Source: Acidobacteriaceae bacterium
GTDB lineage: Bacteria; Acidobacteriota; Terriglobia; Terriglobales; Acidobacteriaceae
Direction of reading: 5' to 3'
Length of the DNA: 64,000 nucleotides
NCBI GenBank assembly: GCA_003138515.1
Contig: PLGG01000015.1
Location: 187,344-251,343, forward strand
Below the pieces are notes generated by a model. The model worked only from the letters and a program-made list of their open reading frames with translations, did no database searches and had not been told where the DNA came from. Shown here in pieces: positions 5,612 through 64,000 of the stretch. A program made the position numbers and the translations under genes. The number at the start of each line of letters is the position of its first letter. Position 1 is the first letter of the stretch.

Positions 5612-7603
5612 TCAAGAGCCTGCCTTCGCCAGCTCCACTTCAATCTTCTTTGAATCTGGAATCAGCTTTGTGATTTTGAAGCTGCGGATCTGGCCTTCGG
5701 CGAGTGGGTCGGGCGTGGCCGATGGCGCGGGGGCATTGCCTTTCCAGCGAGCCTTCAACATCGAGGAGAGCTGCGAGAGGTCAGGCGCGGCGTTTTGCGT
5801 CGACGCTGCGGCTGGCGACGAAGGCGCGGCTCCTGCCCCACCGGTCTTCGTGCGCAATGTGGCTCGGATGCCTTCGCCGAGTTCGACGATTGCCCCGGAA
5901 GGCGTGAGTTCGACGACGCGGCCCGAAACAGAGTCGCCCACTTTATGCTCGGCGATGTATTCGTCGATGCTGGTGGGGATGAGCTGCTTCATCGAGAGCT
6001 TGATCTGGCGCTTCTCAGAGTCGATGGCGAGAATAACGGCCCTGACGACCTGACCTTCGCGCACCATGTCGCGAGGATGGTTGATGCGGCGGTCGGCGAC
6101 AATCTCACTGACGTGAACGAGACCCTCGATTCCACTAAATTCGGGGCCCTCGGCGATCTGAACGAAGGCGCCGAAGTTCATGATTTTGGTGATTGGGCCT
6201 TCGACTTGCGAACCGGCGGGGAATTTGCGCTCGACTTCAAGCCAGGGATCGGCGAGTGTCTGTTTGAGGCCGAGAGAGATGCGGCCTTGCTCCGTGCCCG
6301 CGGGCGGCTTGACGGAGAGAACGACGGCGTCGACTCGGTCGCCCTCGCGGAGCAAGTCGGATGGGTGGCGAACTTTTTTGGCCCACGACATCTCCGAGAT
6401 GTGAATGAGGCCCTCGAGGCCCGGCTCTAGCTCGACGAATGCGCCGAAGTCGGTGAGGCGCGTGACGGCGCCGTTGATGCGCTGGCCCGGCACGAAGCGA
6501 TCGGCTGCGGTCTCCCACGGCTCGGGCTGGAGCTGCTTTAGGCCAAGCGAAATCTTGTTGGTCTCGGGATCGATTTTGAGAATGCGCACCGTGAGTTGCT
6601 CGCCGACTGCGAGAACGTCTTCGGGTTTGGCGACGCGGGCGCGAGAGATGTCGGAGATGTGGAGCAGACCGTCGAGGCCACGCTCGATTTCAACAAACGC
6701 GCCGTAGGGCATGAGGGTGCGAACGGTGCCGTTGACAGTGTCGCCGGGTTTGAGCGCGGCGCGGCGGCCGGCGAGCTCGCCGCGAGCCTGCTCCTCAAGG
6801 ACGACGCGGCGATCGACCACCACATCCTCATCGGTGACGTCGAGCTTGGTGATGCGGCAGGTGATTTCAGTGCCGACGAGGGCTTCGAGCTCGGCGGCAT
6901 CGCGCGTGCCGCTGCGGCTGGCGGGCATGAAAGCGCGAACGCCAACGTCGACGCTCAAGCCGCCTTTGATGACCGCGGTGACGGTTCCGGCGACGGCGAT
7001 TTTCTCGGCGAAAGCGCGCTCGAGGGCCGACCAATCGCGCGGCTGCGCGACGCGATGGCGCGAGAGGTCGTAATAGCCCTCCTCATTGCGGCCGGTGATG
7101 GAGACGGGGAAGCTGTCGCCGGGATTGATGCCTTCGGCGTTGTCGGGGAAAGCCGAGCGGGGCAGAACGCCTTCCATCTTGTAGCCGACGTCGAGGACGA
7201 CCTGATCGGCGGTGAGCGAGACGACCGTACCTTGAAGCTGCTTGGTTTCGGCGCGATGCGTGTGCGAGCGCTCGAATGCGGAGAGCGCGTCGGCGAATGA
7301 CTCGGCAGGCTCTTCGACAGGAGCGGACTCGGCGTCCGCGCCTTGGTCTCCATCGGACGTGCTGAGTGCGGGTTCGTCGCGGAGTTTTTCAGAACGAACG
7401 GACTGGCTGTCTGATCCTTGCTCTTTTGCGTGCGTGGTGACGATCTCCGCAGCGGGCTCTGGCTGGGCGTCCAAAGGTTGATCTCGGTCAGGCTCAGTGG
7501 CGACTGCTTCGATTGACGAAACGATTTCGCCGGTCATGGCGGAGGACTGGCCGTCCTGGCCCTGGTTTTGGATTGGTTCAGTGGGAGTGGGTTCGTCGGT
7601 CAT
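5612..7603 (-). CDS. rpsA: 30S ribosomal protein S1-like protein with about six S1 repeats
   Basis: Repeated S1 motifs (GAFVEIERGLDGLLHISDIS, GAFVELEPGLEGLIHISEMSWAKK, GLVHVSEI); acidic N-terminal extension. Confidence 0.9.
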   Translation of the reverse strand: MTDEPTPTEPIQNQGQDGQSSAMTGEIVSSIEAVATEPDRDQPLDAQPEPAAEIVTTHAKEQGSDSQSVRSEKLRDEPALSTSDGDQGADAESAPVEEPAESFADALSAFERSHTHRAETKQLQGTVVSLTADQVVLDVGYKMEGVLPRSAFPDNAEGINPGDSFPVSITGRNEEGYYDLSRHRVAQPRDWSALERAFAEKIAVAGTVTAVIKGGLSVDVGVRAFMPASRSGTRDAAELEALVGTEITCRITKLDVTDEDVVVDRRVVLEEQARGELAGRRAALKPGDTVNGTVRTLMPYGAFVEIERGLDGLLHISDISRARVAKPEDVLAVGEQLTVRILKIDPETNKISLGLKQLQPEPWETAADRFVPGQRINGAVTRLTDFGAFVELEPGLEGLIHISEMSWAKKVRHPSDLLREGDRVDAVVLSVKPPAGTEQGRISLGLKQTLADPWLEVERKFPAGSQVEGPITKIMNFGAFVQIAEGPEFSGIEGLVHVSEIVADRRINHPRDMVREGQVVRAVILAIDSEKRQIKLSMKQLIPTSIDEYIAEHKVGDSVSGRVVELTPSGAIVELGEGIRATLRTKTGGAGAAPSSPAAASTQNAAPDLSQLSSMLKARWKGNAPAPSATPDPLAEGQIRSFKITKLIPDSKKIEVELAKAGS

Positions 7604-7680
7604 AGAGTTTAATGAATCATTGTTTCACGATCCGGTGGAGCGGCGGCGTGACGTGCGTCGGGTTAACCTGAGAGCAGACG

Positions 7681-9000
7681 ATGACGTCGGTTTCCCCACA
7701 ACCTCGCCGCGGCCTTGAGGCCTTTGCCTTCCGTGACTTCAGGCGGTACCAATTGGCGCGCGTGGCCGTGATCCTGGGCGCAGAGGCGCAGTCGGTTGCG
7801 GTAGCGTGGCAGGTTTACTCCATCACGCACCGCGCTCTTGACCTGGGCTACACGGGGCTGGCGCTGTTCTTGCCGGGCCTGATTTTTCTGCTGCCGGCTG
7901 GCCATGTGGCCGACCGCTTCGACCGGCGGCGCGTGATTCTCGCGTGCTACGCACTGCAGTTGCTCTGCACGGGTGCGCTGGTGGAGCTGGCGCGAGACAA
8001 CACGCAGAACATTCTGGCCATCTACACGGTTCTCTTCTTCGTCGGCACGGGGCGCGCGTTTTCATCGCCGGCGAGTTCGGCACTGATTCCGCATTTGGTT
8101 CCGGAGATTCATTTCGTCAATGCGGTGACGTGGGGCGGCGCGATCTTTCAGCTGGCCAACATCACCGGGCCGGCGCTGGGCGGCCTGCTGTTCACACTGC
8201 CGTTAACGGGCTTTGCGGCGAACTCGCGGCTTGAGGGCGCGGGGATTGTGTATGTGTTCACGCTCGGGACGTTGGTGTGGTTTCTGGCGCTCGTGGCGTC
8301 GTTGCATGTTCGGCCCGGACGCATGGAACACCGCGATCTGTCACTGAGGGTGGTGCTTGCGGGGTTCCAGTATGTGCGGCGGGCGCGGATTCTGCTGGGA
8401 TCGTTTTCGCTGGATCTCTTTGTGGTGCTGCTGGGCGGGGCAGTGGCGCTGATGCCGATTTTCGCGCATGAGATTCTGCACCAGGGGCCGCGCGGGCTGG
8501 GCATGCTGCGCGCGGCGCCGGCAGTGGGCGCGGTTACGATGTCGGTGATCATGGCGCGGTTTCCCCTGCGCCGGCGCGCGGGACGCTGGTTGTTTATCTG
8601 CGTCTCGATCTTCGGCGTAGCGACCATGATCTTCGGGCTGTCGCACTCACTGTGGCTCTCGCTGGCTTCGTTGTCTATCGCGGGCGCGGCAGACACCATC
8701 AGCGTGATCATTCGCGGATCGTTGCTGCAGCTGGCCACGCCGCCGGAGATGCGCGGTCGCGTGAGCGCAGTGAATTCGCTGTTCATCGGCGCGTCAAACG
8801 AACTGGGCGAATTTGAGAGCGGGTTCACGGCGCAGTGGTGGGGTGCGGTGCGAGCCACAGTGATTGGCGGGATCGGGTCGCTGATCGTGGCAGCTGCGTG
8901 GGCCGGCATCTTTCCCCAACTGCGCAATGCCGATGAACTCACGGCAGAGAGTTTGCGGGAACACGTGCCTGCGGCACAGGAAATTCTGTCTGGTCTGTAA
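7681..9000 (+). CDS. MFS transporter (EntS/enterobactin-exporter-like)
   Basis: 439 aa polytopic protein; GHVADRFDRRRVIL MFS loop motif and PEMRGRVSAVNSLFIGASNELGEFESG. Confidence 0.85.
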   Translation: MTSVSPQPRRGLEAFAFRDFRRYQLARVAVILGAEAQSVAVAWQVYSITHRALDLGYTGLALFLPGLIFLLPAGHVADRFDRRRVILACYALQLLCTGALVELARDNTQNILAIYTVLFFVGTGRAFSSPASSALIPHLVPEIHFVNAVTWGGAIFQLANITGPALGGLLFTLPLTGFAANSRLEGAGIVYVFTLGTLVWFLALVASLHVRPGRMEHRDLSLRVVLAGFQYVRRARILLGSFSLDLFVVLLGGAVALMPIFAHEILHQGPRGLGMLRAAPAVGAVTMSVIMARFPLRRRAGRWLFICVSIFGVATMIFGLSHSLWLSLASLSIAGAADTISVIIRGSLLQLATPPEMRGRVSAVNSLFIGASNELGEFESGFTAQWWGAVRATVIGGIGSLIVAAAWAGIFPQLRNADELTAESLREHVPAAQEILSGL

Positions 9001-11754: not shown

Positions 11755-14733
11755 CTAGCTCTGCGGCAGCGAAGCGAGCGCGGCCTGGGCTTTTTCGAGT
11801 AGGAGGCGGGTTTCGGCTTCCTGCTTTTTGAGGCCTTCGACCACGTGCGATGGGGCCTTGGCCAAAAAGCCTTCATTGCCCAGTTGACGCTCTGCTGCTG
11901 CCAAGCCTTTTTCATACCTGGCGATGTCTTTTGTCAAGCGCTCGCGTTCGGCGGCGGCGTCGATCTTCTTCTCATAAGCGGTACCGAGATCAAACATCCC
12001 TTGGCGCCAGAACAGATCGGACAGCGTACCAAAGCGCTCTTGAGATCCAACAAGCCGGATCGGGTGCACTCGCGCGAGTCTTTCCACAATCTGGGCATTC
12101 CTCGATATGAGTCTTCCGGCGGATGCTATAGGTCCCCAAAGATTCTCTACGGGATTGTGACTTGCCCTCCCGATGTTGACGTCGAGAACATATCCCGGAA
12201 CAGCCTCCGAGTCTGGCACCGATAAATCCTTCCGGATGGAACGCAGTTCCGCTATCAGGTTCTGAAGTTGGCCCATTTCAAACAGAACCTCGTTGTCAAT
12301 GTTGTTCTTATCTCCAGCCGGATACCGCGTCAACGCGATCGACTTTGCCGGAGGGTTGCCATCGTAGACCGCGTACCAGAGCTCTTCAGTAATGAAGGGC
12401 ATGAGCGGGGATAGGAGACGAAGAGCAACTTCGAATACCTGCACTAGCGTGGTGAGTGCGGCTTTCGTGTTGGCTTGGTCCGCGGTTTCGGAGAAATCGA
12501 GGCGTAGCTTAACGATTTCCAGGTACCAATCGCAAAAACTGCCCCAGAAGAATTGATAGATCGTATTCGCCGCGTCGTCGAAGCGATAATTCTCGAGCGC
12601 CTGATTCACTTTCGCTGCGGTCGCGTGCAGTTCGGCCACGATCCAGCGCGCTTCGAGCGGGGCACCGGCTGGAACCGTCGGCATCCCGCCAAGCGTGGCA
12701 CGATCAACTGTAATGCCGGCTTCCGCAGCCCTGTCCACGTTCATGAAGATGAACCGCGCGGCGTTCCAGATTTTGTTCGCAAACGCGCGGTAGCCCTCGG
12801 TGCGGGCCACGTTGAATGCGATATCGGTGCCGGGCGAAGCCATGGACGCGAGCGTGAATCGGACCGCGTCGGTCCCGTACTGCTTGACGATCTCGATGGG
12901 ATCGACGACGTTGCCCTTGGTCTTGGACATCTTTTCGCGGTTGGCATCGCGGACGAGAGCGTGGATATAGACCTCGCGGTACGGAACTGACTCTGCGAGC
13001 GGGCGCGGGTTGCCGTCGGGGAGTGGCACGTCGCGCGAGAACCAGCAGCCGAACATGATCATGCGCGCGACCCAGAAAAAGAGAATGTCGAAACCAGTGA
13101 CGAGAAGGCTCGTGGGATAGAACGCGGCAAAATCGGCAAGTGTTTCGGCCGTAATGTTGGGCCAGCCGAAGACGGAGACAGGCAGCAGGCCCGACGAGAA
13201 CCACGTGTCGAGAACGTCTATCTCCTGCGTGAGCTTATCCGAACCGCAGTGCGCGCAGACCGTCGGGTCTTTTTGGTTGGGCTGGGGCACCGTGATCTTG
13301 TGGCAGGCGGCGCAGTGCCATGCGGGAATGCGATGGCCCCACCAGAGCTGGCGCGAGATGCACCAGTCGTGAATATTCGTCATCCACTCGAGGTAGATCT
13401 TTTCGTAGTTGTCCGGCGTGAAGCGGATGGCCTTCTTGCCGTCGGCGTCCGCCCCAACGGCAACGGGCCCGTCTTCGCGGGGCTTGACGGCGGCGATGGC
13501 CAGCTCGGCCATGGATGCACCGCCCGCGTCGGGCTTTTTGTTGACGGCGATGAACCACTGTGTGGAGAGGCGCGGCTCGATGACGCTTTTGCAGCGGTCG
13601 CAGTGGCCCACGTTGTTGGTGTAATCCTTTACGGCAACTAGCAGCCCCTGCTCTTCGAGATCGTGGACGATGTGCTTGCGGGCAACATAGCGGTCAAGGC
13701 CGGCATACGGTCCGCCTTCGGAATTGATTTGAGCGTGATCGTCCATTACGTTGATAGCCGGAAGATGATGCCGCTCGGCCAGCGCGAAGTCATTGAGATC
13801 GTGTGCGGGCGTAACCTTGACGGCGCCGGTGCCGAACTCGCGGCTCACCCACTCGTCGAGCACGATGGGAATTTCGCGATTCACGAGAGGCAGGCGCAGC
13901 TTTCTTCCGTGGAGATGCAGGTAACGCTCGTCCTCGGGATGAATGGCGACGGCTGTATCGCCGAGCATGGTCTCCGGACGCGTAGTCGCGACGGTCAAAA
14001 ACTCGCCGGAGTCTTTGCCATCGGCGCCGAGAACGGGGTACTTGATCTCCCACAGATGGCCCTTGTGCTCGGAGTGGATGACTTCGAGATCGCTGACCGC
14101 GGTTTGGCAGCCGGGGCACCAGTTGACGATGTACGCGCCGCGGTAGATGAGTCCCTGGTGGTAGAGGCGGACGAAGGCCTCCCTGACCGCGATCGACAGG
14201 CGCGCGTCCATGGTGAAGTACTCGCGGCTCCAGTCGACGGAGACGCCGAGGCGCTTCATCTGCTCGAGGATGGCTCCGCCGTAGTGTTGCTTCCACTGCC
14301 AAACGCGCTCCACGAAGGCCTCGCGGCCGAGCTGCTGGCGCGATGTGCCTTCCGAGACCAGTTGACGCTCGACGAGCATCTGAGTGGCAATGCCGGCGTG
14401 GTCGGTTCCCGGCACCCACAAAACACGATCGCCGCACATCCGCCGCCAGCGTACAAGAATGTCGATCTCGGTGTGCTCCAGCATGTGGCCCATGTGGAGG
14501 TAGCCGGTGACGTTGGGCGGAGGCAGCAGAACAACAAAAGCCGGCTGGGCGCTGGGGGACTTGCCGTCCGGGCTTTGGTTTTGGACGGGAGTTGTGGCAG
14601 TGGGTTGTTCGAAGAGTTTTTCCCGGACCCAGTATGCGGCCCAGTGATCTTCAATGGCGGTTGGGTCGTAGGCTTTTGGCAGGTCGTGAGGCATTTTTTC
14701 TTTTGCGAGCCCCCGGTGATTTTGGGAAAACAC
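11755..14733 (-). CDS. valS: valine--tRNA ligase
   Basis: [15 protein letters not shown] (HIGH), [15 protein letters not shown] (KMSKS), C-terminal coiled coil; 992 aa. Confidence 0.95.
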
Positions 14734-17975: not shown

Positions 17976-19889
17976 TTATACGGCTGCGGGCGTCGGCGCC
18001 AGCGACAGCGTGAGCACCGTGATGTCGTCCTGCTGCCCGAACTGGACAGCCGCGTCGGCGATCTGCTGCGCCGCGCGAGAGCTGAGTTGGCGGGTGCGTT
18101 CAAAGCCGAAGAGTTCGCCCAGCGCATTGCGTGCCTCCACGACGCCGTCGGATAAGAACGTGAGCTTATCGCCGGGCGCGAGCTGGAGGGACAATTCGGT
18201 GTACTCGGCGGCCGCGTCGACTCCGAGAGGAAGACCCACGGGAATCTCGATCTCCTGGCCGTTGCGATAGGGCGGCAACTGGCCGGCGTTGGCGATGAGC
18301 AGAACACCAGTGGCCGAGAGATCGGCGCAGAGGCAGGTGGTAAAACCCTCGATGCCGCTGTTGCGAAGGGCCGCATTTAGTTCGTGGAGCACAGCGGCAG
18401 GGCGGAGATCGTCGCAGCGATCGGCGGCGCCGAGAAGGAGCGCAGAGGTGAGCGCGGCCGCGACGCCTTTCCCGCTGACATCGCCGAGGAGCACGCGCTG
18501 TGACCCGTTGGCGAGAGCGCGGCAGAGGTAGGAATCTCCGCCGACTTCGCTGGCGGGCAGAAAAGCCGAACTGACGGTGACGCCGGGCGCGACCAGCATT
18601 TTGTCCGGAATAAGCAAATGCTGCACCTGGCGAGCGGCGGTGAGCTCTCCGCGCATCTCGGCGCGCTCGTCGGCGGTGATCCGCTGCTGATGGAATATAT
18701 AGCCGAACAGAACGATCAGCAAAGCGGCGATGGCCAGTGACATCCAGCTCTGCACCGCGCCCGACCAAGTGTTGCGGTCAAAGATGACTTGCTGCAACTG
18801 GAACCAGCCCTCGATGACCGCCCAGATAGCGGAGAGGGCAGCGACGATGCGCATGTGGCCGCGCAGGCGGTTCCAGGGCCAGAAGGCAACGAACGGAGCC
18901 GTGCATGCGAATCCCCAGATGCACCAGATGGGCTTGAAGCAGGTGACCTGCACAAAAAGCGAGAGCGGCAGAGCCCATGGCGCGGGCAGGAAGACCGGCA
19001 AGACCGAACCAAGGAAAATGAAGACCCACGCGGCGAAGACCAGCCAGTAGATGAACGGGACGCGCCGTTCGGCAAGAGCGAAGTTGACGCGAACCAGCGC
19101 CCACGACTCAATCATCGACAGGCCAAAAAGTACACTGTTAACCAAGATGGAGGAGCCGCCGCCGGAAAGGTAGGCAAGCATCACGTTCGATCGAGGCAGG
19201 CAGACGCAGCAACAGTAGATACCCAGCCAGAATGCAGCTTTTTGCGATCGATCAAAGAGGAAGAGCCCGAGCAGGAAGAGCCCGGCTGCTCCAATGACGA
19301 GATAACTCGAGTAGGCAGGGATGAATCCCTTCAGGGCTTCGCCACGATGCGCATCAATGAAATTCCGCGTGTATTCAGAGTCGCCGAAATAGAGATAAAC
19401 GGGGCGGCCCGGCATGTCGCCAGGCATAAGTAGTTTTTGAAAAACCCGTATGGCGATCGTGCGCGTAGAATGGCCGGGTTCCGGCGACGTGGGGTAAATC
19501 CAGATTGGCACGCCCTCCCAGTCAGATTCGCTCGCAGGTTGTCCCTCCACAAAGAGCTTGGCCTGTGAGTGGCCGTCCCGACCGACGGCCAACATGGGGT
19601 GCTGGATTCCATTCGTGTCGAAGGTCGCGCGGCAGCGCACCCAAAGTACCCAGGCGTCGCCGGTCATGCGGTAATCGGTGTAGGGCTTCCAGCCGCCGGG
19701 GTCGATATCCACAGCGGCCCAGGCCGGATTGTCACCGAGCCTGTAGACGCACTGGTTGTCGGGGACCTGGGTTAGCTGCGCGGAAAGAGCGCAGGGCACG
19801 GCCACGAATAAAGCAATCAGCGAACTTCGCACGTGGTGACTCTGCATGAGGATCGACGCGTCCTCCAAGATAGGGCTCGAACGAATCAT
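17976..19889 (-). CDS. membrane-anchored PP2C/SpoIIE-type serine phosphatase (RsbU-like)
   Basis: 637 aa; several TM segments, then ARQVQHLLIP ... PASEVGGDSYLCR ... LLGDVSGKGVAAALTSALL ... LTFLSDGVVEARN. Confidence 0.85.
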   Translation of the reverse strand: MIRSSPILEDASILMQSHHVRSSLIALFVAVPCALSAQLTQVPDNQCVYRLGDNPAWAAVDIDPGGWKPYTDYRMTGDAWVLWVRCRATFDTNGIQHPMLAVGRDGHSQAKLFVEGQPASESDWEGVPIWIYPTSPEPGHSTRTIAIRVFQKLLMPGDMPGRPVYLYFGDSEYTRNFIDAHRGEALKGFIPAYSSYLVIGAAGLFLLGLFLFDRSQKAAFWLGIYCCCVCLPRSNVMLAYLSGGGSSILVNSVLFGLSMIESWALVRVNFALAERRVPFIYWLVFAAWVFIFLGSVLPVFLPAPWALPLSLFVQVTCFKPIWCIWGFACTAPFVAFWPWNRLRGHMRIVAALSAIWAVIEGWFQLQQVIFDRNTWSGAVQSWMSLAIAALLIVLFGYIFHQQRITADERAEMRGELTAARQVQHLLIPDKMLVAPGVTVSSAFLPASEVGGDSYLCRALANGSQRVLLGDVSGKGVAAALTSALLLGAADRCDDLRPAAVLHELNAALRNSGIEGFTTCLCADLSATGVLLIANAGQLPPYRNGQEIEIPVGLPLGVDAAAEYTELSLQLAPGDKLTFLSDGVVEARNALGELFGFERTRQLSSRAAQQIADAAVQFGQQDDITVLTLSLAPTPAAV

Positions 19890-19934
19890 AGTCCGTGAGG
19901 GCCAGTCGCAGCCACGGATTTTCCTACGCGTCGA

Positions 19935-21287
19935 TCAGGTCAACGGCGGAGGAAGAATTGTTTTTGCGGCCATTCGGCCCACGCCGCGAAGGATGGCCTT
20001 GATGGGCCAGCGATCTTCGGCGTCGGGGAAGAAAACCTCTCCTGTGCGCTTTGCTTCGGGGCGGTAGTACCAGCGCTTGAGCAGCGCCAGATGACCCTGC
20101 CGAATTGTGGCTGTCGGCGCGGCTTTGTCTTGCGTCAAAGCGCCGAGAGCGTCCTCGAGCCGGCTTTCGAGAACGCCGCGAGCGAGCTTTGGTGCGACTG
20201 GCGCCTGCGTTGCGGCCTGTGCTTCCGCTGCTCGGCTGCTGCTGATTCCCGATCCCTGTTCCCTGCTCCCTGTTCCCTGTTCTCCGTTCTCTGCTCTCTG
20301 ATCTTTGATCTCTGTCTGCTCCGGAATCGCTTCAATCGCCAGCGGCTGCGCGAACAGCGAGGTCGAGCCGGACTGCTCGTTCTGAATTCTCATGCCCAGA
20401 GTCGAGAAAGCCGCCGGGCCACGCAGGCGGCCGCTATCAAACAAGAACACGGCGACTTCGTCGGGATTCGCTGAGGCTTGAACAATCACAGCGCGAAGTT
20501 GGCTAAGTGGGCGGACGAGTTCGGCGGCCAGGGCGCGCACGGCCTCGACTTGCTGCACCTGTGCGTGGAGCGCGGCGGCGGACTCGAATGCGAGATCGGC
20601 CGATGCCTGGTCGCGCTCAGTGCGGAGGGTGACGAGCCGGCTTTCGCCGCGCGTCGCGAGAAAACGTTCGACGGCCACAGACTCTTCCCCATAGCGCTCG
20701 TCGCTGCAGCCCTTGAAACACGGCGCGAGACACATCTTCATCTCGGAGTAGACGCAGCCCGGATAGCTCGGATCGGGCGCGAGTTCGAAGGTGCAGCGGC
20801 GCAGCAGAAACAATTTGAGCATCTCTTCGGCGTAGCGCTCGGCGGCAGCGCGCGAGGGGAACGGTCCGTACGCCCAGTCGGCTTCGCGAAGGCTGGGCCG
20901 ATGCGTGACCGTAACACGCGGGTAAGGATTGCCGCCGAGAAAACGGACGAAGGCGGGATGGCGGAGGTGCATGCGCTCCAAAACTGTTGCGCCGAAGATC
21001 TCGTCTAAAAGAGAGAACTGCGCAAGCAGCGATTCGAACTCGGAGCCGGTGAGCTTCCAATCGATTCGGCGTACAAGTCCAGCGAGATGGAGGCGGCGCG
21101 GATGCTTCGCGGAGGGCTGCAGCAGCCGTTCAAGTCTCGAACGAAGGTTGGGCGTACGGCCGATGTAGGGCTCTGCGCGAGAGTCGCCGCCATAGAGCGC
21201 AAAGACCGCTGCCGACTGCGGCAGCTCGGCCAGCGTGGCTTTCGGAGCGGCCAGATCGAATGGCAGAGATTGGAACTCGTTCGGCAC
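19935..21287 (-). CDS. UvrC/Cho-like GIY-YIG nuclease family protein lacking the UvrC C-terminal half
   Basis: SAAVFALYGGDSRAEPYIGRTPNLRSRLERLL GIY-YIG-like region and CMAPCF-type CLAPCFKGCSDERYGE cysteine motif; 450 aa. Confidence 0.75.
   Translation of the reverse strand: MPNEFQSLPFDLAAPKATLAELPQSAAVFALYGGDSRAEPYIGRTPNLRSRLERLLQPSAKHPRRLHLAGLVRRIDWKLTGSEFESLLAQFSLLDEIFGATVLERMHLRHPAFVRFLGGNPYPRVTVTHRPSLREADWAYGPFPSRAAAERYAEEMLKLFLLRRCTFELAPDPSYPGCVYSEMKMCLAPCFKGCSDERYGEESVAVERFLATRGESRLVTLRTERDQASADLAFESAAALHAQVQQVEAVRALAAELVRPLSQLRAVIVQASANPDEVAVFLFDSGRLRGPAAFSTLGMRIQNEQSGSTSLFAQPLAIEAIPEQTEIKDQRAENGEQGTGSREQGSGISSSRAAEAQAATQAPVAPKLARGVLESRLEDALGALTQDKAAPTATIRQGHLALLKRWYYRPEAKRTGEVFFPDAEDRWPIKAILRGVGRMAAKTILPPPLT
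20244..20316. repeat. short tandem/degenerate repeat (CCCTGTT / GGGAACA units) inside the UvrC-like gene
   Basis: ATTCCCGATCCCTGTTCCCTGCTCCCTGTTCCCTGTTCTCCGTTCTCTGCTCTCTGATC...; read as EQTEIKDQRAENGEQGTGSREQGSG. Confidence 0.85.
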
Positions 21288-21448
21288 AGTCCGCGGTCAC
21301 CTCGTAACGTACATCACAAGTACACGTGTTCAAAGAGATTCTACGGCGAGCCGCGGAACAAAGAGCGTGATGCTCGCGGAAAGAGTACAACCAATCTCGG
21401 GGTTTCGCATCTGACGCAAGTGATACCGCAGTACGTGGAGGTGGTATC

Positions 21449-22351
21449 GTGAGACGCTTTGAAGTTGTATTGCTTTCGATTTCTCTCCTTGGTTTTCCGG
21501 TCAGCGATTCGGCGATCCAGAATCAGTCAACGCTGACGCAGCCCTCCCCAGCAAGCGCTCCCGCTTCCATCACCGTCCCTGCCGGTTCCAAAATCGAATT
21601 GGTTGTGACGCGCCCCGAGCGCGCGCAGTCCGCCAAGAACGGCGACACCGTCTACGCGCAAACTTCGTTTCCAACCGTCGCCGGCATCGGCATGGCAATT
21701 CCCGCGGGCACCTACGTGGAAGGGACGATTAAAAGCGTAACGCGTCCCACGCGCAAATTCGACCGCGCCGAGATTCAGGTGCTCTTCACCAAAATCGTTT
21801 TTGCCGATGGCTACATCGTGGAGCTTCCCGGCACAACAAACGCGATGCAGGCGCCGGCAGCCGGTCCCTCATCGGGCGATCCGCAACCCGCGTCCCGCGA
21901 GACGCTCATCGCGATCACGATTCAGGTGACGCCGGCGAACGATCTGCTGCTCGACAATGGCGCTGAAGTGGAGATGACGCTGGGCGCGCCGCTTCAGTTG
22001 AACGCAAAACAGGTTGCGCAGTCGATTCCCCTTTCGCGATTGCCGCAGCCGGGACAGCTTAAATCCGCCACAACTTGCCGCAACGTTCCCGGAAGCCCCG
22101 GTACGCAGGGGACGTCCGATACGGTGATTCCCGGATCGCCCGGCACGCCTGACACCGTGATTCCCAGAGGGCCCGGAATGCCCGATACTGTCATTCCTGG
22201 AACTCCAGCGACTCCGGATACCGTGATCCCCGGCTCGCCGGGCACATCGGGGACCCCTGACTATATTTGTCCGGCCACGCCGCTCGTGATTTCGTCGACT
22301 CCAGTCAACAACCAACCAACGCAAAGTTCTCAGCCGGTGGCGGCCCGTTAG
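21449..22351 (+). CDS. secreted/periplasmic hypothetical protein with C-terminal collagen-like DTVIPGSPGTP repeats
   Basis: GTG start; signal-like N-terminus; PAGSKIELVVTRPERAQSAKNGDTVYAQTSFP core and four 11-aa repeats. Confidence 0.7.
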   Translation: MRRFEVVLLSISLLGFPVSDSAIQNQSTLTQPSPASAPASITVPAGSKIELVVTRPERAQSAKNGDTVYAQTSFPTVAGIGMAIPAGTYVEGTIKSVTRPTRKFDRAEIQVLFTKIVFADGYIVELPGTTNAMQAPAAGPSSGDPQPASRETLIAITIQVTPANDLLLDNGAEVEMTLGAPLQLNAKQVAQSIPLSRLPQPGQLKSATTCRNVPGSPGTQGTSDTVIPGSPGTPDTVIPRGPGMPDTVIPGTPATPDTVIPGSPGTSGTPDYICPATPLVISSTPVNNQPTQSSQPVAAR

Positions 22352-56709: not shown

Positions 56710-57936
56710 ATGCCACTTCGAGAGGGCTTCAAACTCGCGTTGCAATCGCTGTGGGGCAACAAGCTGCGCACCATCCTGACGCTGATCGGCGTGGTGATGG
56801 GCGTGGCCTCGGTGATCATGGTGATCACGCTGGTGAACGGCGCCAACCGCTACGTCGCCACCAAGCTCTCCGGCTACGGCGCCGACGTTTTCCAGGTATC
56901 GCGGCAAGCGAGCGTGATCTTCAGCGCCCAGGATTATTTCCGCTTCCAGAGGCGCAAGATCGTGCGCACCGAGGACTACGCGGTGGTGCGGGATAGCTGC
57001 ACCGATTGCAGCGACGTGGGCGCGGCGTTGAGCAAGACTACGAACGTTTTCTACAACGGCCACTCCAGCGACAACACCGATGTTCGCGGGTACACATGGA
57101 CGATGCTCACGCTGAACAACATCAATATCGCGATCGGGCGCGGGTTCACGCCGTCCGACGAGGAGCATGGCGCTCACGATGCAATCGTGGGATACGACAT
57201 TGTGGACAACATTCTTGGCACAGGCGATCCCATTGGCAAGGAGATTCGCGTGGACGGGATTCCCTACACGATTGTGGGCGTGGGCGAGCGCCAGGGCAAC
57301 ACGCTCGGTCAGTCGCAGGATAACTGGGTGGCCGTGCCCATCAGCACCTATCAGCAGACCTACGGCTACAACGATTCGGTGAATATTTTTGCGCGGGTGG
57401 CGGGCGGCGCGGACGCGATGGAGCGGGCCGAGGACCAGGTGCGCGTGCTGATGCGGACGCGGCGCCACGATGCGCCGGGATCGCCCGACGACTTTGAGAT
57501 CAACACCAACGACACTTTCCTCGACATCTGGAGGCAGATCAGCTCGCTCTTCGCCAGCGTGGCGCTGGGGCTGGCGTCGATCTCGCTCGTGGTCGGCGGC
57601 GTGGTGATCATGAACATCATGCTGGTGAGCGTAACCGAGCGGACGCGCGAGATCGGCGTGCGCAAGGCGCTGGGCGCCAGGCAGCGCGATGTGCTGATGC
57701 AGTTCCTTATCGAGAGCGGGACCATGGCAGTGACTGGAGGAGCCATCGGCGTGCTATGCGGGATTTTGGTGGGCAAACTCATCACGATTGTCATTGGGTT
57801 CCCGACCAGCGCGCCATTGTGGGCGGTTTTGCTGGGCCTGTTTCTGGCCGGCTCGGTGGGCATTTTCTTCGGCGTTTATCCCGCTAGCAAGGCAGCCAAG
57901 CTCGATCCGGTGGTTGCGCTGCGCTCGGAATTGTGA
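56710..57936 (+). CDS. MacB/FtsX-type ABC transporter permease (type A, copy 1)
   Basis: FKLALQSLWGNKLRTILTLIGVVMGVASVIMVITLVNG; C-terminal VGGVVIMNIMLVSVTERTREIGVRKALGARQRDVLMQFLIES. Confidence 0.92.
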   Translation: MPLREGFKLALQSLWGNKLRTILTLIGVVMGVASVIMVITLVNGANRYVATKLSGYGADVFQVSRQASVIFSAQDYFRFQRRKIVRTEDYAVVRDSCTDCSDVGAALSKTTNVFYNGHSSDNTDVRGYTWTMLTLNNINIAIGRGFTPSDEEHGAHDAIVGYDIVDNILGTGDPIGKEIRVDGIPYTIVGVGERQGNTLGQSQDNWVAVPISTYQQTYGYNDSVNIFARVAGGADAMERAEDQVRVLMRTRRHDAPGSPDDFEINTNDTFLDIWRQISSLFASVALGLASISLVVGGVVIMNIMLVSVTERTREIGVRKALGARQRDVLMQFLIESGTMAVTGGAIGVLCGILVGKLITIVIGFPTSAPLWAVLLGLFLAGSVGIFFGVYPASKAAKLDPVVALRSEL

Positions 57937-57945
57937 GACTGAACG

Positions 57946-59202
57946 ATGGCAAGCACAGGCCAAACCCGTGAATCCGTAAAGATGGCGCTGGACACTTTGC
58001 GAACCAACAAGCTGCGCTCGGGGCTGACGATCCTTGGCATCGTGATCGGGGTCTCCACCGTCATCGCGATTTCTTCAGTAGTCAATGGCATCGATAATCG
58101 TGTCTCGAGTTTTATCAACTCGCTGGGGTCCAACGTCTACTGGATCGGGCGCTTGCCGATTATTAATGTGCGGCCGACGGCTGAGATGCTGGCACGCAGG
58201 ATGCTGACCGTCGATGACGCCAGGGCGTTGCGCACACTGCCTCATGTGATCACCACGGACGCCGAGGACGCTTCCATCAAGAGCTTCCAGGTAGGCGACG
58301 TCAGCGCACGATACGAAGGCAAAAAAGTCGCCGGCTCGATCCTGGCAGGCGATTTTCCCGAAGTAATGGATGTGACCGAACTGGTGATGCAGCAAGGCCG
58401 CATGTTCACCGACGCCGAAGATACACGCGCCGCGCATGTCGTGGTGCTCGGCCACGACACCTGGCAGGAACTCTTCGGCGACGAGCCGGCAGTGGGCAAA
58501 GAGATCGCCATCGAGTCGGGGCTGTACACCGTGATTGGTGTGTTGGATAAGCGCAAGCAGCCCTTCGGCAGTGGCAAGAATCCGCGCGACAACATCATCC
58601 TGTTCCCGTTCGGAACCTTCCACAACCTGCACCCGGAGATCACGGATCTGACGATCATCGTGAAGTACGACAGCCCTCAGAACAAAGCTCTTGTCCAGGA
58701 GGAGATTCGGGAGCTGTTAAGAATCCGCCGCAAAGTGCGCGTGGACAAGGTGGACGACTTTGAGATTTTCGGTCCTGACTCTCTCACCAAGCTGTGGGGT
58801 CAGCTGACCGATGGGCTGGTCATCTTCATGATCGCCGTCTCCAGCGTGGGACTCATGGTAGGTGGCGTGGGCGTGATGAACATCATGCTGGTGAGCGTGA
58901 CCGAGCGGACCCGCGAGATCGGAGTGCGCAAGGCGATCGGCGCGACCAAGCGAACCATCCTTACGCAGTTCACGGTGGAAGCAGTGACATTGTGCTCGGT
59001 TGGCGGCGCCATGGGCATTTTGCTTGGCGCGATCATCACATGGATCGTGTACCTCCTGCCCATCGGCTTGCCGGCGACGGTTTCGACAATGTGGGTGCTG
59101 ATCGGCTTCGGCGCCTCGTGCTTAATTGGATTGGTCTTCGGCATCTACCCCGCCTGGAAGGCGGCGAATCTGGATCCAATCGAAGCGCTGAGATACGAGT
59201 GA
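57946..59202 (+). CDS. MacB/FtsX-type ABC transporter permease (type B, copy 1)
   Basis: VKMALDTLRTNKLRSGLTILGIVIGVSTVIAISSVVNGI; GGVGVMNIMLVSVTERTREIGVRKAIGATKRTILTQFTVEAVTL. Confidence 0.92.
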   Translation: MASTGQTRESVKMALDTLRTNKLRSGLTILGIVIGVSTVIAISSVVNGIDNRVSSFINSLGSNVYWIGRLPIINVRPTAEMLARRMLTVDDARALRTLPHVITTDAEDASIKSFQVGDVSARYEGKKVAGSILAGDFPEVMDVTELVMQQGRMFTDAEDTRAAHVVVLGHDTWQELFGDEPAVGKEIAIESGLYTVIGVLDKRKQPFGSGKNPRDNIILFPFGTFHNLHPEITDLTIIVKYDSPQNKALVQEEIRELLRIRRKVRVDKVDDFEIFGPDSLTKLWGQLTDGLVIFMIAVSSVGLMVGGVGVMNIMLVSVTERTREIGVRKAIGATKRTILTQFTVEAVTLCSVGGAMGILLGAIITWIVYLLPIGLPATVSTMWVLIGFGASCLIGLVFGIYPAWKAANLDPIEALRYE

Positions 59203-59376
59203 AGATGGTTTTGGGCGCCAGGTTCATCCCAGTGCGGCCAAACCCGACCCCTGCAAACTGCTTTCGTGATGCCGCACGCACTGGCGCGGGCGATGGAGAT
59301 CGCGACGACGGCGCTGGCCGCTGAATCACCGCGCCGGAACCCCGAATCGGGCGTTTGCGTATCATAAAAGCAGATC

Positions 59377-60603
59377 ATGCCATTCGGTGAGGCCTTCAAA
59401 CTCGCGCTGCAATCGCTGTGGGCAAGCAAGCTGCGCTCCATTCTTACGCTGATTGGAATGGTCCTCGCCGTATCTTCGGTGATCACAGTGGTCACGCTCA
59501 CCAACGGGGCCAAGCAGTTTGTCACATCGAAGATCAACACCTATGGCGCTGCCGTCATCACGGTCAGCAAGATGCCGCAGACCTTCATGACAATCGAGGA
59601 GTACGTCGAGTTTCAGAAGCGCAAGAATGTAACGTACGACGACTATCGCGCGATTCTCGACGAGTGCAAATCCTGCGTATCTGTAGGCGCGCAACGCGAT
59701 AGTACCGGCAAAGTTGTGCGCGGAACCCAGTCCACAACAGACACTGACATTCGCGGCTGGACCTGGACCATGCCGCCAATTTCGAATCTCAATATCGTCC
59801 TGGGCCGGTCGTATACCGAGATGGAAGACCAGCACTCGGCGCATGTGGCCATTGTGGGCTCTGACATTGTGGACAACGTGCTGGGCCCGGGCGACCCGCT
59901 CGGCAAAGAGATTCGCGTTGACGGCGCTCCGTATACCGTGATCGGCGTCGGCGAGAGCCAGGGCAAAATGTTCGGCCGCAGCATGGATAACTGGGTGGCG
60001 ATTCCCCTCACGACTTTTCTTCAGGCCTACGGGTCCAACCAAAGCCTGCAGATTCTCGTCAATTCCGGCGGCGGCGGTGCCGTGATGGAAGCGGTCAGCG
60101 ACGAGCTTCGCGTGATTCTTCGCACTCGTCGTCATCTTGCGCCAGGCGCGGCTGACGCATTCTCCATCGATTCCAGCGCAACCTTCGGGAATCTGCTGGT
60201 GACTATTCTGAACAATTTTGGCGCCGTCGTCGTGGCCATCGCCGCGGTCGCGCTGGTCGTCGGCGGCATTGTCATCATGAACATCATGCTGGTGAGCGTG
60301 ACGGAACGGACGCGGGAGATTGGCGTCCGCAAGGCGTTGGGAGCGCGCCGCCGCGACATCCTGCTCCAGTTCCTCATTGAATCGGCGTTGCTTGCTGCGC
60401 TCGGCGGGGTCATCGGCGTCGTGTTCGGTATCTCCGCCGCTAAGCTGATTACCGTGGCGGTCTCTTTTCCCTCGTCGGTGGCGCTCTGGTCCGTCCTGGT
60501 CGCGCTTTTTGTGGCCACCGCCGTGGGATTGTTCTTTGGAGTTTATCCCGCGCACAAAGCCAGCGCTCTCGACCCCATCACTGCGCTTCGTGCAGAAATG
60601 TGA
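59377..60603 (+). CDS. MacB/FtsX-type ABC transporter permease (type A, copy 2)
   Basis: FKLALQSLWASKLRSILTLIGMVLAVSSVITVVTLTNGAKQFV; closely parallels the 56710 product. Confidence 0.92.
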   Translation: MPFGEAFKLALQSLWASKLRSILTLIGMVLAVSSVITVVTLTNGAKQFVTSKINTYGAAVITVSKMPQTFMTIEEYVEFQKRKNVTYDDYRAILDECKSCVSVGAQRDSTGKVVRGTQSTTDTDIRGWTWTMPPISNLNIVLGRSYTEMEDQHSAHVAIVGSDIVDNVLGPGDPLGKEIRVDGAPYTVIGVGESQGKMFGRSMDNWVAIPLTTFLQAYGSNQSLQILVNSGGGGAVMEAVSDELRVILRTRRHLAPGAADAFSIDSSATFGNLLVTILNNFGAVVVAIAAVALVVGGIVIMNIMLVSVTERTREIGVRKALGARRRDILLQFLIESALLAALGGVIGVVFGISAAKLITVAVSFPSSVALWSVLVALFVATAVGLFFGVYPAHKASALDPITALRAEM

Positions 60604-60660
60604 GTGCATTCTCTACTTGCTCAACACGCCGGACAACGAATAACTGCGAACTAAGAGCTG

Positions 60661-60687
60661 TCAACTGACAATTGACAACTGACAACT
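60661..60687. repeat. short AACTGACAATTGACAACTGACAACT tandem/palindromic repeat
   Basis: TCAACTGACAATTGACAACTGACAACT immediately upstream of the 60697 start. Confidence 0.75.
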
Positions 60688-60696
60688 AGAGACCTT

Positions 60697-61956
60697 ATGC
60701 CCGCAATCGGCCAATCCGGAGAAGCAGTCAAACTCGCGCTGGACACGCTGCGCAAGAACAAGCTGCGCTCCGGCCTCACCATCCTCGGCATCTCCATCGG
60801 GATCGCGACTGTCATCCTGATCTCTTCTGCCATTAACGGACTCAATTCCAACATCGATCATTTTGTGAGCACGCTGGGCACCAACGATTTGTGGATCTTC
60901 CAATTCGAGCCCTTCGGCCATCGGCCCACCACCGAGGAGCTGAATCGCAAGAAGCTCACCTACGAAGACGGTGTGGCAATGCGCAGCCTGCCGCATGTGA
61001 TCGCTGTCGATCCGGAGCTGACCTACCAGAATTTCCAGACCGGCTTGGGCAGCGTTGCCATGAAGGCAGGCACGCACAAAATCCAAAATACGATCATCAA
61101 TGGCAGCACCGAGGCCGTGACGCAAGTGGTCGATGTGAACTTGAAGGAAGGCCGCATGTGGACGGAATCGGAGGCCGAGCACAGTGACAATGTAGTCGTT
61201 CTCGGTCACGATGCCGCTGAGGATCTCTTTCCGGATAAGTCACCACTGGGACAGGACGTGGATTGCGAAGGAGATATTTTTACCGTCATCGGCGTACTCG
61301 ATCCGCAGCCGCAACCGTTCGGCAGTGGACGCAACACGCAGGACAATTCAGCCTATTTCCCTCTGGGGACTTTCAGAAAGATTCACCCCGAGATCCTCGA
61401 CTACTGGATTGTGGCGCGATACGACAACCCTGCCAACAAAGCAGTGGTGACCGAGGAGATCCGCGAGCTGCTCCGCGTGCGGCGAAAGTTGCACGTGCAG
61501 CAGGACGACAACTTCGCCATCTTCAGTCCTGATTCGCTCACTCGGCTTTGGAATCAACTGACCATCGGGCTGTTTTCGTTCATGGTTGCCGTCTCTTCTG
61601 TCGGTCTGATGGTGGGCGGGGTGGGCGTGATGAACATCATGCTGGTCAGCGTGACGGAACGCACGCGAGAGATTGGCGTACGCAAAGCGATCGGCGCAAC
61701 CAGGAAAAACATCCTGCTGCAATTTACGCTCGAGGCGGTGACGCTCTGCATGATTGGCGGGCTGCTCGGCATTCTGGCTGGAGCGCTGTTCACGCTCATT
61801 CTGCACTTTGCCGTGTCCTTCCTTCACGCGGCACTATCGTTCACCTGGGTCATCGTCGCCTTTCTCGTTTCCTGCATCATTGGACTGGTCTTCGGCATCT
61901 ATCCCGCCTGGAAGGCGGCGAGCCTTGACCCGATTGAAGCGCTGCGATACGAGTGA
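60697..61956 (+). CDS. MacB/FtsX-type ABC transporter permease (type B, copy 2)
   Basis: VKLALDTLRKNKLRSGLTILGISIGIATVILISSAINGL; GGVGVMNIMLVSVTERTREIGVRKAIGATRKNILLQFTLEAVTL. Confidence 0.92.
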   Translation: MPAIGQSGEAVKLALDTLRKNKLRSGLTILGISIGIATVILISSAINGLNSNIDHFVSTLGTNDLWIFQFEPFGHRPTTEELNRKKLTYEDGVAMRSLPHVIAVDPELTYQNFQTGLGSVAMKAGTHKIQNTIINGSTEAVTQVVDVNLKEGRMWTESEAEHSDNVVVLGHDAAEDLFPDKSPLGQDVDCEGDIFTVIGVLDPQPQPFGSGRNTQDNSAYFPLGTFRKIHPEILDYWIVARYDNPANKAVVTEEIRELLRVRRKLHVQQDDNFAIFSPDSLTRLWNQLTIGLFSFMVAVSSVGLMVGGVGVMNIMLVSVTERTREIGVRKAIGATRKNILLQFTLEAVTLCMIGGLLGILAGALFTLILHFAVSFLHAALSFTWVIVAFLVSCIIGLVFGIYPAWKAASLDPIEALRYE

Positions 61957-62183
61957 GGCAGGTGTCAGGTGTCAGCCTCATCCCGGTGCGACCAAATCTG
62001 GGTACTGGGTCAGTTTCAATTTCCACAGTCTATGCATAGACCAGGTTGGCACTTTACGTGCTTCGCGGGTAGGCGCGTATGATTGCCAATAAGCCGCTAA
62101 AGCCTCCGATTCGACTCCAATCCCCCACATTATTCGCCAAGCCGAATTCAAATCTTCTAGCTTTCCGGCCCAAGAGGAAGCCT

Positions 62184-62975
62184 GTGACGATTGCGATTGG
62201 ATTCGTCCATGATGAAGGGTTATTGCTATGTGCCGACACAAAAGTGACGGGCATAATTAAGGCAAATCAGAGCAAGATTGAACACTGGCACAACAAAGAT
62301 AGAGACTGTAGCTTATCCTTCGCCATATCCAGCGAAGACCTGAATTTCCCTAAAACGGCGATCAAGAAATGCTGTGCTTTTGTTAAGAAAATGGACCCAA
62401 AAACTATCACATTGGAGTCAGTCCATGATGCTGCTGAGTTCTCATTGGCCGAGTTCTATCGGGAACACATTTACGCTCATCCAGACAGAACACCGGGTGC
62501 CGTCTTCCTTGAGTTACTGGTAGCAATATCCGTCCGTGGCGAGATGGGACTTTATGTATCCCATGAGACCGTTTTGAATCCCGTCGAGATTTTTGAATGC
62601 GTTGGTTCGGGTGCGTATCTGGCAAAATATCTGATTGGGAAGTATTCGAGTGCCAACCCAGGCAGGCTGACTCATGCGGATGCAGTTGTCATTAGCCGGT
62701 ACGCTGTACAATCCGCGATCGATTACGACCAAAATTGCGGAGGCACAATAGAAATACTGAATGTCGGAGTATCTGGCGTTCCTAAGCGAACAATTGGAAC
62801 GGATTGGTATCCAACACAGGATTTCGTTAGTGGTGCGCTAGATGCTGTTTTGCAAATGACACACGATTTAGCGAATATGTCGGCTGAGGACCACTGGGGC
62901 GAAGCGACTGACAAGCGTATAGATGAAGTCGCTAAACGGCTTCATGATCTCGATATGAATAAGTGGAATTGGTAG
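62184..62975 (+). CDS. proteasome beta-like/HslV/Anbu-superfamily Ntn hydrolase, stand-alone
   Basis: GTG start with AGGAAG upstream; (V)TIAIGFVHDEGLLLCADTKVT with Thr after the start and Asp at position 17, QSKIEHW, VGSGAYLAKYLIG, ADAVVISRYAVQSAIDYDQNCGGTIEILNV. Confidence 0.65.
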   Translation: MTIAIGFVHDEGLLLCADTKVTGIIKANQSKIEHWHNKDRDCSLSFAISSEDLNFPKTAIKKCCAFVKKMDPKTITLESVHDAAEFSLAEFYREHIYAHPDRTPGAVFLELLVAISVRGEMGLYVSHETVLNPVEIFECVGSGAYLAKYLIGKYSSANPGRLTHADAVVISRYAVQSAIDYDQNCGGTIEILNVGVSGVPKRTIGTDWYPTQDFVSGALDAVLQMTHDLANMSAEDHWGEATDKRIDEVAKRLHDLDMNKWNW

Positions 62976-62979
62976 AAGA

Positions 62980-63870
62980 TTAAGCAATCTCTCCAAGCGC
63001 CCTGCGCAGAATCTCACCGTCATACTTAGAGGTTTTCACTACTGTCTTGGGCAGGAGTGCAATCAAATCATCTATGGTCCACGCCCTATGAGCGAGTCCG
63101 ATTTCCATAGCTGGCGTCACTCTCAGGCTCGCGTGAATCCTGACAAAGTTGTAATGCATGTAGTGGATTGCGACCGCGTGCGCGTGATTCTCGGCTTTCT
63201 TGCTGTGCGCGTTGGTGAGCCGGGTAAAGCGGCGCTGCGACATCCTGAGCGTTAGATTCTGGCGTTCTACATAGGACGTGGAAACGTGCGCGGGATCGGG
63301 AAAGCCGATGACTGTTTTCATATCACAGCCGATGCACTTCGCAGGGGAATAACGGCGCTGTTCCTCATCTGTGGGAGCGCCGTAAATCTTGTGCAACTGC
63401 GCGTAATCCACTTCTAGGCCGAAAGCGCCTTCCACGGCCTTGAGGTATGGGGCGTGTGCGTCAGTCGTTACCTGTACACGGCTGGCGATGCGACTGGCAC
63501 AATCATCCATGAAGTCCATCGCCCAGTTGGTATCTCTGCCGCCGACGAGGTAGGAGACAACGAGTTTCGTATCCGCGTCGATTCCTATCCAAGTCCAAAT
63601 ATCGCCCCATCCCGCTGCTTTTTGGTCCGGTGTAGCGTTCTTCTGTTTCGTCCCACAGAAACTCCAAATCTCATCGCATTGCAAACGGCGAACCTTGAGG
63701 TTCCGCACATGCTTGTCGTGATACTCCGCGCACACTTTGCCTAAATCGACGAGTAGCTTGGTGACTGTATTCTTGGCCGCTCCCGTCATGCGGCAAGTCG
63801 CCCTAATCGAGCAGCCCTCGATGAGGCAACGGGCAATCTGTGCTCTGGTTTGGGAGTCCAAGCAGTTCAT
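62980..63870 (-). mobile_element. IS1-like DDE transposase gene
   Basis: HTH IRATCRMTGAAKNTVTKLLVDLG; CDEIWSFCGTKQKNA ... GDIWTWIGIDADTKLVVSYLVGGRD; DAHAPYLKAVE; SYVERQNLTLRMSQRRFTRLTNAHSKK. Confidence 0.85.
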
Positions 63871-63959: not shown

Positions 63960-64000
63960 ATGGCTACGACGATTGGTTCGCAGGATTTTCTCGATTATGC
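63960..64000 (+). CDS. start of an uncharacterised ORF truncated by the window edge (MATTIGSQDFLDY...)
   Basis: ATG at 63960 preceded by GAGAGGAAG; only 13 codons visible. Confidence 0.35.
   Translation, partial: MATTIGSQDFLDY

Follow-up and report, generated by a model that had tools for sequence, protein, structure and literature searches.

A predicted stand-alone proteasome-type Ntn hydrolase is a probable exchangeable passenger of small transposons in Acidobacteriota

Introduction

Why does a gene for a lone proteasome-like protease lie beside a transposase gene in an acidobacterial genome, and what might its product do there? The question is raised by a locus near the right end of the window, the whole 64,000-nucleotide stretch of Acidobacteriaceae DNA analysed here. 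A sequence-only reading had proposed a stand-alone proteasome-beta-like Ntn hydrolase in an accessory position, read from a GTG codon with Thr as residue 2 and located next to a transposase.

Orphan proteasome homologs have been surveyed by Fuchs, Alva and Lupas (2021; PMC8665760), who list 22 families. In that survey no genomic context hinting at a function is reported, and transposons go unmentioned. Connectase, a member of the same superfamily, is a ligase according to the same text. Insertion sequence families with passenger genes (tIS) are also known (Siguier, Gagnevin and Chandler 2009, cited in PMC7986276).

Results

The frame is open on the plus strand from 62079 to 62975, with GTG at 62184 and Thr as residue 2. 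The codon preceding Thr1 was compared in 78 relatives; it was ATG in 47, GTG in 27, TTG in 3 and GTC in 1, so that 77 of the 78 have ATG, GTG or TTG directly before Thr1. Since the Val and Leu codons at this position are, one exception aside, GTG and TTG, which are able to initiate, the -1 position is read as the start codon, and a propeptide is then unnecessary. A proteasome-style propeptide had been considered and was dropped, the -1 codon being nearly always a start codon. GTG 62184 is the true start of the window hydrolase, as had been proposed. The DNA similarity between two of the relatives, L008 and L041, starts at the start codon and not within the leader; the window leader at 62079-62183 probably lies outside the mature enzyme. 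The window hydrolase gene is present as a single copy in its genome. As a separate observation, a GGCTNCC motif is found upstream of an AGGA-like ribosome site in 14 of the 78 loci, and might form a hairpin hiding the site.

The family assignment was examined by profile comparison. A 44-member profile matched the proteasome beta-2 subunit in the PDB (6hv3_H, E 6.9e-16) across the domain, with the Thr of the profile placed on Thr1, and Anbu (5nyj, E 1.8e-14), likewise across the domain. Singly, 28 of the 44 profile members matched PF00227 at E <= 0.01, the best at 1.5e-8. The window protein alone scored 16.4-16.8 bits against PF00227 (E 0.0075 at 16.4 bits), below the Pfam gathering score of 22.4, and also stayed under the curated NCBIfam cutoffs, with equally weak matches to the archaeal beta family and to a phage HslV-like family. 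AlphaFold runs on two-sequence alignments (window with L131, and L131 with window) gave pLDDT values of 38 and 36 and no usable model. The predicted alpha-beta-beta-alpha Ntn fold thus rests on the profile evidence. The profile comparison, a check of the kind that the earlier reading had called for, taken with the conservation of catalytic positions described below, bears out a proteasome-beta-like hydrolase that stands alone in an accessory position.

No unfoldase gene and no hslU was found beside the window hydrolase, in line with what had been noted from the window; an ordinary hslV-hslU pair is present in the same genome on another contig (C43). Anbu-type partner genes are absent from the element, whose other genes are the transposase and small unrelated ORFs. 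In a search of related genomes for the window family, 54 of 301 genomes of the same taxonomic family carried relatives, usually one copy per genome. Matches beyond the class were few at the sensitivity used (4 of 297 genomes of the phylum from other families), and a profile search of genome contigs gave one named relative, from an Acidobacteriaceae MAG of the class Terriglobia. No plasmid or phage record matched the window or L008 protein in tblastn searches, and PADLOC gave no match.

The active-site positions were then compared. The window protein reads T1-I-A-I-G-F...C-A-D17, as had been written before, and across the 78 relatives position 1 is Thr in 76 and Ser in 2 while the Asp17 column is Asp in all 78, although these two residues partly served to place the start in that set and weigh less there for this reason. 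The Lys at mature position 30 of the window protein, within the KIE assigned earlier to the Lys33 region, does align with Lys33, a column with Lys in 76 relatives and Arg in 2. In the first alignment of five sequences, which was unconditioned, the invariant columns include M1, T2, G6, G12, D18, K26 and K31, and also G141, G143, C185, G186 and G187. The two remaining motif assignments held in part. For the likeness of VGSGAYLA to the GSG motif (V-G-S-G-A at residues 140-144 in M1-numbering), the Gly128 column is Gly in 78 of 78 relatives, but the Ser of GSG is kept in just 20. For the likeness to xRDxxSGG (D-Q-N-C-G-G at residues 182-187 in M1-numbering), the window protein has Asp at the Asp166 position, three residues before 169; among the 78 relatives this position is Val in 38 and Asp in only 12. 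At the Ser169 position, 43 relatives have Cys and 34 have Val. With the Thr, Asp, Lys and Gly128 positions holding in the homolog alignment, the conservation of the predicted catalytic residues is not due to chance. Given the variable position 169 and the unkept Asp166, the activity of the window protein and its relatives may be weak or non-proteolytic. One relative (L042 6998-7897, plus strand) has Ser for Thr at position 1 and is a natural variant of the putative nucleophile.

The surroundings of the gene were examined for the borders of a mobile element. An element of 3,078 bp opens with the window hydrolase gene, which is followed by a convergent transposase gene and small ORFs (Table 1). 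The element corresponds to L010 6345-9422; it starts at window position 62001 and runs on for 1,078 bp outside the window. Its ends carry GGTACTGGGTCAGTTT in inverted orientation, the first 16 of 16 bases matching between the two ends, and the same terminal repeat is found at both ends of L008, L045, L047, L048, L051, L054 and L064. The window transposase scored 23.3 bits against PF03400, just under the cutoff of 24.1, and the L047 transposase scored above it; homologs in plasmid records are annotated as 'IS1 family transposase'. In genomes of the same genus the flanking genes are adjacent, with the two flanking pieces 152 bp apart in one (G856:C25) and 102 bp apart in another (G639:C62), versus 3 kb in the window's genome; these are apparently empty sites, which support transposition of the element indirectly. 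Since inverted repeats and a target-site duplication (TSD) enclose both genes, the window hydrolase is read as a transposon passenger. The placement next to a transposase was thus right in that the transposase adjoins and is convergent, but the hydrolase lies inside the transposon.

Table 1. Features of the transposon at the right end of the window. Coordinates are window positions unless given in locus L010, which extends past the window end.
Feature	Coordinates	Strand	Basis or remark
Left 8-bp target-site duplication CAAATCTG	61993..62000	.	Exact repeat flanking inverted repeats
Left terminal inverted repeat GGTACTGGGTCAGTTTCAATTTCCACAG	62001..62028	+	Partner ends at L010 9422, 1,078 bp beyond window
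In-frame leader with upstream ATG, Pro/Arg/Lys-rich	62079..62183	+	ORF preceding conserved start codon
Predicted proteasome-beta-like Ntn hydrolase, 263 aa, Thr1-Asp17-Lys33, transposon passenger gene	62184..62975	+	Profile match and catalytic conservation
IS1-like DDE transposase, 296 aa, convergent with hydrolase	62980..63870	-	PF03400 DDE_Tnp_IS1, E 9e-5
Start of 141-aa ORF, CxxC-type motifs, further cargo	63960..64000, continues to L010 8729	+	ORF list; no Pfam match
Right copy of target-site duplication CAAATCTG	L010 9423-9430, 1,079-1,086 bp past window end		Exact 8-bp repeat

Some further features were seen at and around the element. A small basic protein of the form MT[VI]GKGKRPRDPNQLAKWIV...GGKRRL.TMT....AAKAA.ARWKK, which has no Pfam match, is encoded beside the right end of IS1-like elements (L010 9109-9375; L008 13574-13891; L045, L047, L048, L051, L064, L080, L111, L112) and seems to be a conserved component of the IS1-like shell. 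At the right flank in L010 (the AAATCTGAACCCTGAAACCTGACCCC region), the element has inserted at a short intergenic repeat with many copies in genomes of the same genus, possibly a preferred insertion target. Immediately before the element come four FtsX/MacB-like ABC permease genes in a row (window 56710-61956, plus strand), apparently paralogous pairs.

The recurrence of this arrangement was followed among relatives, with flanking sequence included, in 40 further loci of the same taxonomic family and in another 33 Ntn loci, most of which belong to other families of the class. Of 79 loci, 34 had the hydrolase enclosed by an exact 8-bp TSD together with inverted repeats matching at 13 or more of 16 positions, as against 1 of 73 in a control in which the left window was shifted by 1.2 kb. 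An IS1-like or IS1595 transposase lies within 1 kb downstream in 48 of the 77 loci with enough downstream sequence, convergent with the hydrolase in 40 (24 IS1-like, 16 IS1595) and on the same strand in 8 (4 and 4). Near the remaining 29 relatives no transposase was recognised, and these may represent resident genes or decayed elements. At least three types of ends were found, namely GGTAGTGGGTCAGTTT (IS1-like), CAxGATTATTCACTTGACAAAG (IS1595; PF12762) and CGGAAGTATGTACTTTACGCAA. The elements are often cut down to hydrolase and transposase, about 2 kb in all, and L076 is a 1,411-bp non-autonomous element with inverted repeats and TSD in which the hydrolase is the sole gene and no transposase is present (6870-8280, oriented with the hydrolase on the plus strand). 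This survey of genomic context, also called for beforehand, changes one part of the earlier picture. The gene is alone in that it lacks an unfoldase or alpha-subunit partner, but its association with transposons is recurrent and exchanged, not a single case.

As a control from the transposase side, IS1595 transposases sharing 60% or more identity with the L053 transposase were collected, and nearly all of those with an intact slot carry an Ntn gene. Several of these Ntn genes are very diverged (L199, L200, L201, L202 and L206), and in L205 the slot holds a membrane protein instead. The choice of cargo is wider in the IS1-like shells, where SDH_protease (ClpP-like), Peptidase_M78/IrrE, SocA-like antitoxin and other genes occur in addition to Ntn genes. 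The SDH- and M78-type proteases suggested a rule by which every slot would hold a protease, but we do not claim it, as other shells carry TA, PIN, membrane or unrecognised genes. In L008 a TIR-domain gene (13091-13564, plus strand; PF13676, E 1.1e-11) is extra cargo of the hydrolase-bearing transposon, and L064 has an ORF pair resembling HicAB, judged by eye. The window's genome (G000) has a second element of IS1595 type on contig C88 at about 19639-21671 (L202), with TSD CCTTTTAG and, as passenger, another, very diverged Ntn-like protein that starts with TTG-Thr.

Hydrolases and transposases were compared between elements. L041 and L070 have transposases that are 90% identical and hydrolases that are 22% identical; their DNA is 86% identical across the left 57 bp and the region of the transposase. 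Across transposase families, the hydrolases of L008 (IS1-like) and L041 (IS1595) are 56-57% identical. These two comparisons together indicate that cassettes were swapped between shells. Hydrolase and transposase distances gave Mantel r values of -0.08 in 21 IS1595 elements and 0.04 in 14 IS1-like elements, within which mean identities are near 20% for hydrolases and near 65% for transposases; co-evolution of hydrolase and transposase was dropped as a candidate because the distances are uncorrelated. On a hydrolase tree, which is a quick tree with long branches, 16 changes of the IS1-like label are required, where shuffled labels require 18.5 on average; starred branches force 9 or more of the 16. 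dN/dS was 0.07 and 0.15 in the two measurable pairs, the other pairs being saturated. By these measures the hydrolase genes look functional, and they appear to have moved between shells rather than diverged in place.

Discussion

The locus is probably best described as the passenger cassette of a small IS1-like transposon, encoding a stand-alone proteasome-type Ntn hydrolase with an intact active site, the cassette being swappable and restricted in its fold. In the mechanism that we propose, translation from GTG 62184 would give Met-Thr, and removal of Met would expose Thr1. The freed Thr1, with Asp17 and Lys33, would attack peptide bonds. Since neither a propeptide nor an alpha subunit nor an unfoldase is supplied with it, the enzyme would act alone, probably on a specific or already unfolded substrate, and presumably as a homo-oligomer or a monomer. 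The gene appears to move with its transposon, and the predicted fold occurs with two transposase families at the least, the IS1-like and the IS1595-like; elements of these families have swapped very different hydrolase genes while transposase and ends stay alike. The slot would be retained because an active hydrolase benefits the element or the host.

With proteasome beta, Anbu, HslV and the orphan homologs (PMC8665760), the window family shares Thr1, Asp17, Lys33 and the GxG motif, along with the whole-domain profile match to beta-2 and Anbu. It differs from them in being transposon-borne, hypervariable and free of a propeptide, in its variable C-terminal extension past the matched domain and in the change of Ser169 to Cys or Val. 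It resembles most orphan homologs, as described in that survey, in having no dedicated unfoldase, and differs from HslV in that no hslU adjoins. With IS1595 and IS1 elements that have passenger genes it shares an IS1/IS1595-type DDE transposase, inverted repeats, an 8-bp TSD and an enclosed passenger; the difference is that the passenger here is a proteasome homolog and is exchanged between shells. PPH and AAH, carried by phages (PMC8665760), are likewise proteasome homologs spread by mobile DNA, on a different carrier from the transposon of the window family. In the open-access literature no link was found between proteasome homologs and IS passenger genes or their exchange between shells. 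The genomic setting of a transposon-borne, exchanged proteasome relative was thus not found described before, and its parts are separately known.

What the hydrolase does is a matter for tentative proposals. Our leading guess, which we put forward with less than even confidence, is a defence-like effector or an effector of competition between elements, with varying targets; it is suggested by the mixed, conflict-flavoured cargo and by the turnover of hydrolases. A toxin-antitoxin pair made by the hydrolase was dropped, since nothing besides hydrolase and transposase is present in the compact elements, which thus supply no antitoxin or unfoldase partner.

The hydrolase could instead be an accessory transposition factor that holds the element at a low copy number by degrading the transposase or a host factor. 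Its position, adjoining and convergent with the transposase, would fit this, as would the two-gene elements, the near-constant presence of an Ntn gene beside L053-like IS1595 transposases with an intact slot, and the usual single copy per genome. The two proteins do not co-diverge, however, and the pairing of near-identical transposases with unrelated hydrolases is odd for partners. Related IS1-like shells without the hydrolase carry other genes, and L076 kept the hydrolase without a transposase. We regard such a role as unlikely but as a live rival. The same holds for an ordinary passenger of benefit to the host, for example in stress physiology or in ATP-free clearing of damaged proteins, with no tie to conflict between mobile elements; some further role takes up the small remaining probability. 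The patchy distribution over genomes of the family (54 of 301), the HslVU already present in the window's genome and the extreme sequence turnover in a fixed slot, which is unlike housekeeping, speak against it, even though purifying selection (dN/dS 0.07 and 0.15) is compatible with it, PMC8665760 considers ATP-independent 20S functions for orphan homologs, and the copies that lack a recognised transposase (29 of 77) could be resident genes.

Two further alternatives concern the origin of the arrangement and not its function. Rapid divergence in place, instead of cassette exchange, would explain why the catalytic residues are kept while the remainder differs, as fast evolution would give. It conflicts with the low dN/dS where measurable and cannot yield hydrolases 56-57% identical in two transposase families with similarity from the start codon, and is considered very improbable. 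Chance insertion of an insertion sequence beside an unrelated chromosomal gene, implied by the 'next to a transposase' of the earlier title and plausible insofar as insertion sequences are common, has a negligible likelihood, given inverted repeats and a TSD enclosing both genes, the same arrangement with independent TSDs in dozens of genomes, and apparently empty sites.

Exchange of cassettes between transposon shells therefore remains the preferred reading. Acidobacterial transposons may keep a dedicated slot, which in one IS1595 clade holds almost only proteasome-fold hydrolases, and may shuffle a large pool of these between families. This could amount to a diversified system of proteolytic or protein-ligating effectors, directed for example against phages or rival mobile elements, a speculative extension that we hold with less than even confidence. 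For orphan proteasome homologs the published survey had found no telling context, and a mobile cassette with intact catalytic residues now supplies one. The dozens of very different enzymes in one genetic setting form a natural panel, with which defence, transposition control or connectase-like ligase activity becomes directly testable. The setting could thereby reveal what orphan relatives of the proteasome do.
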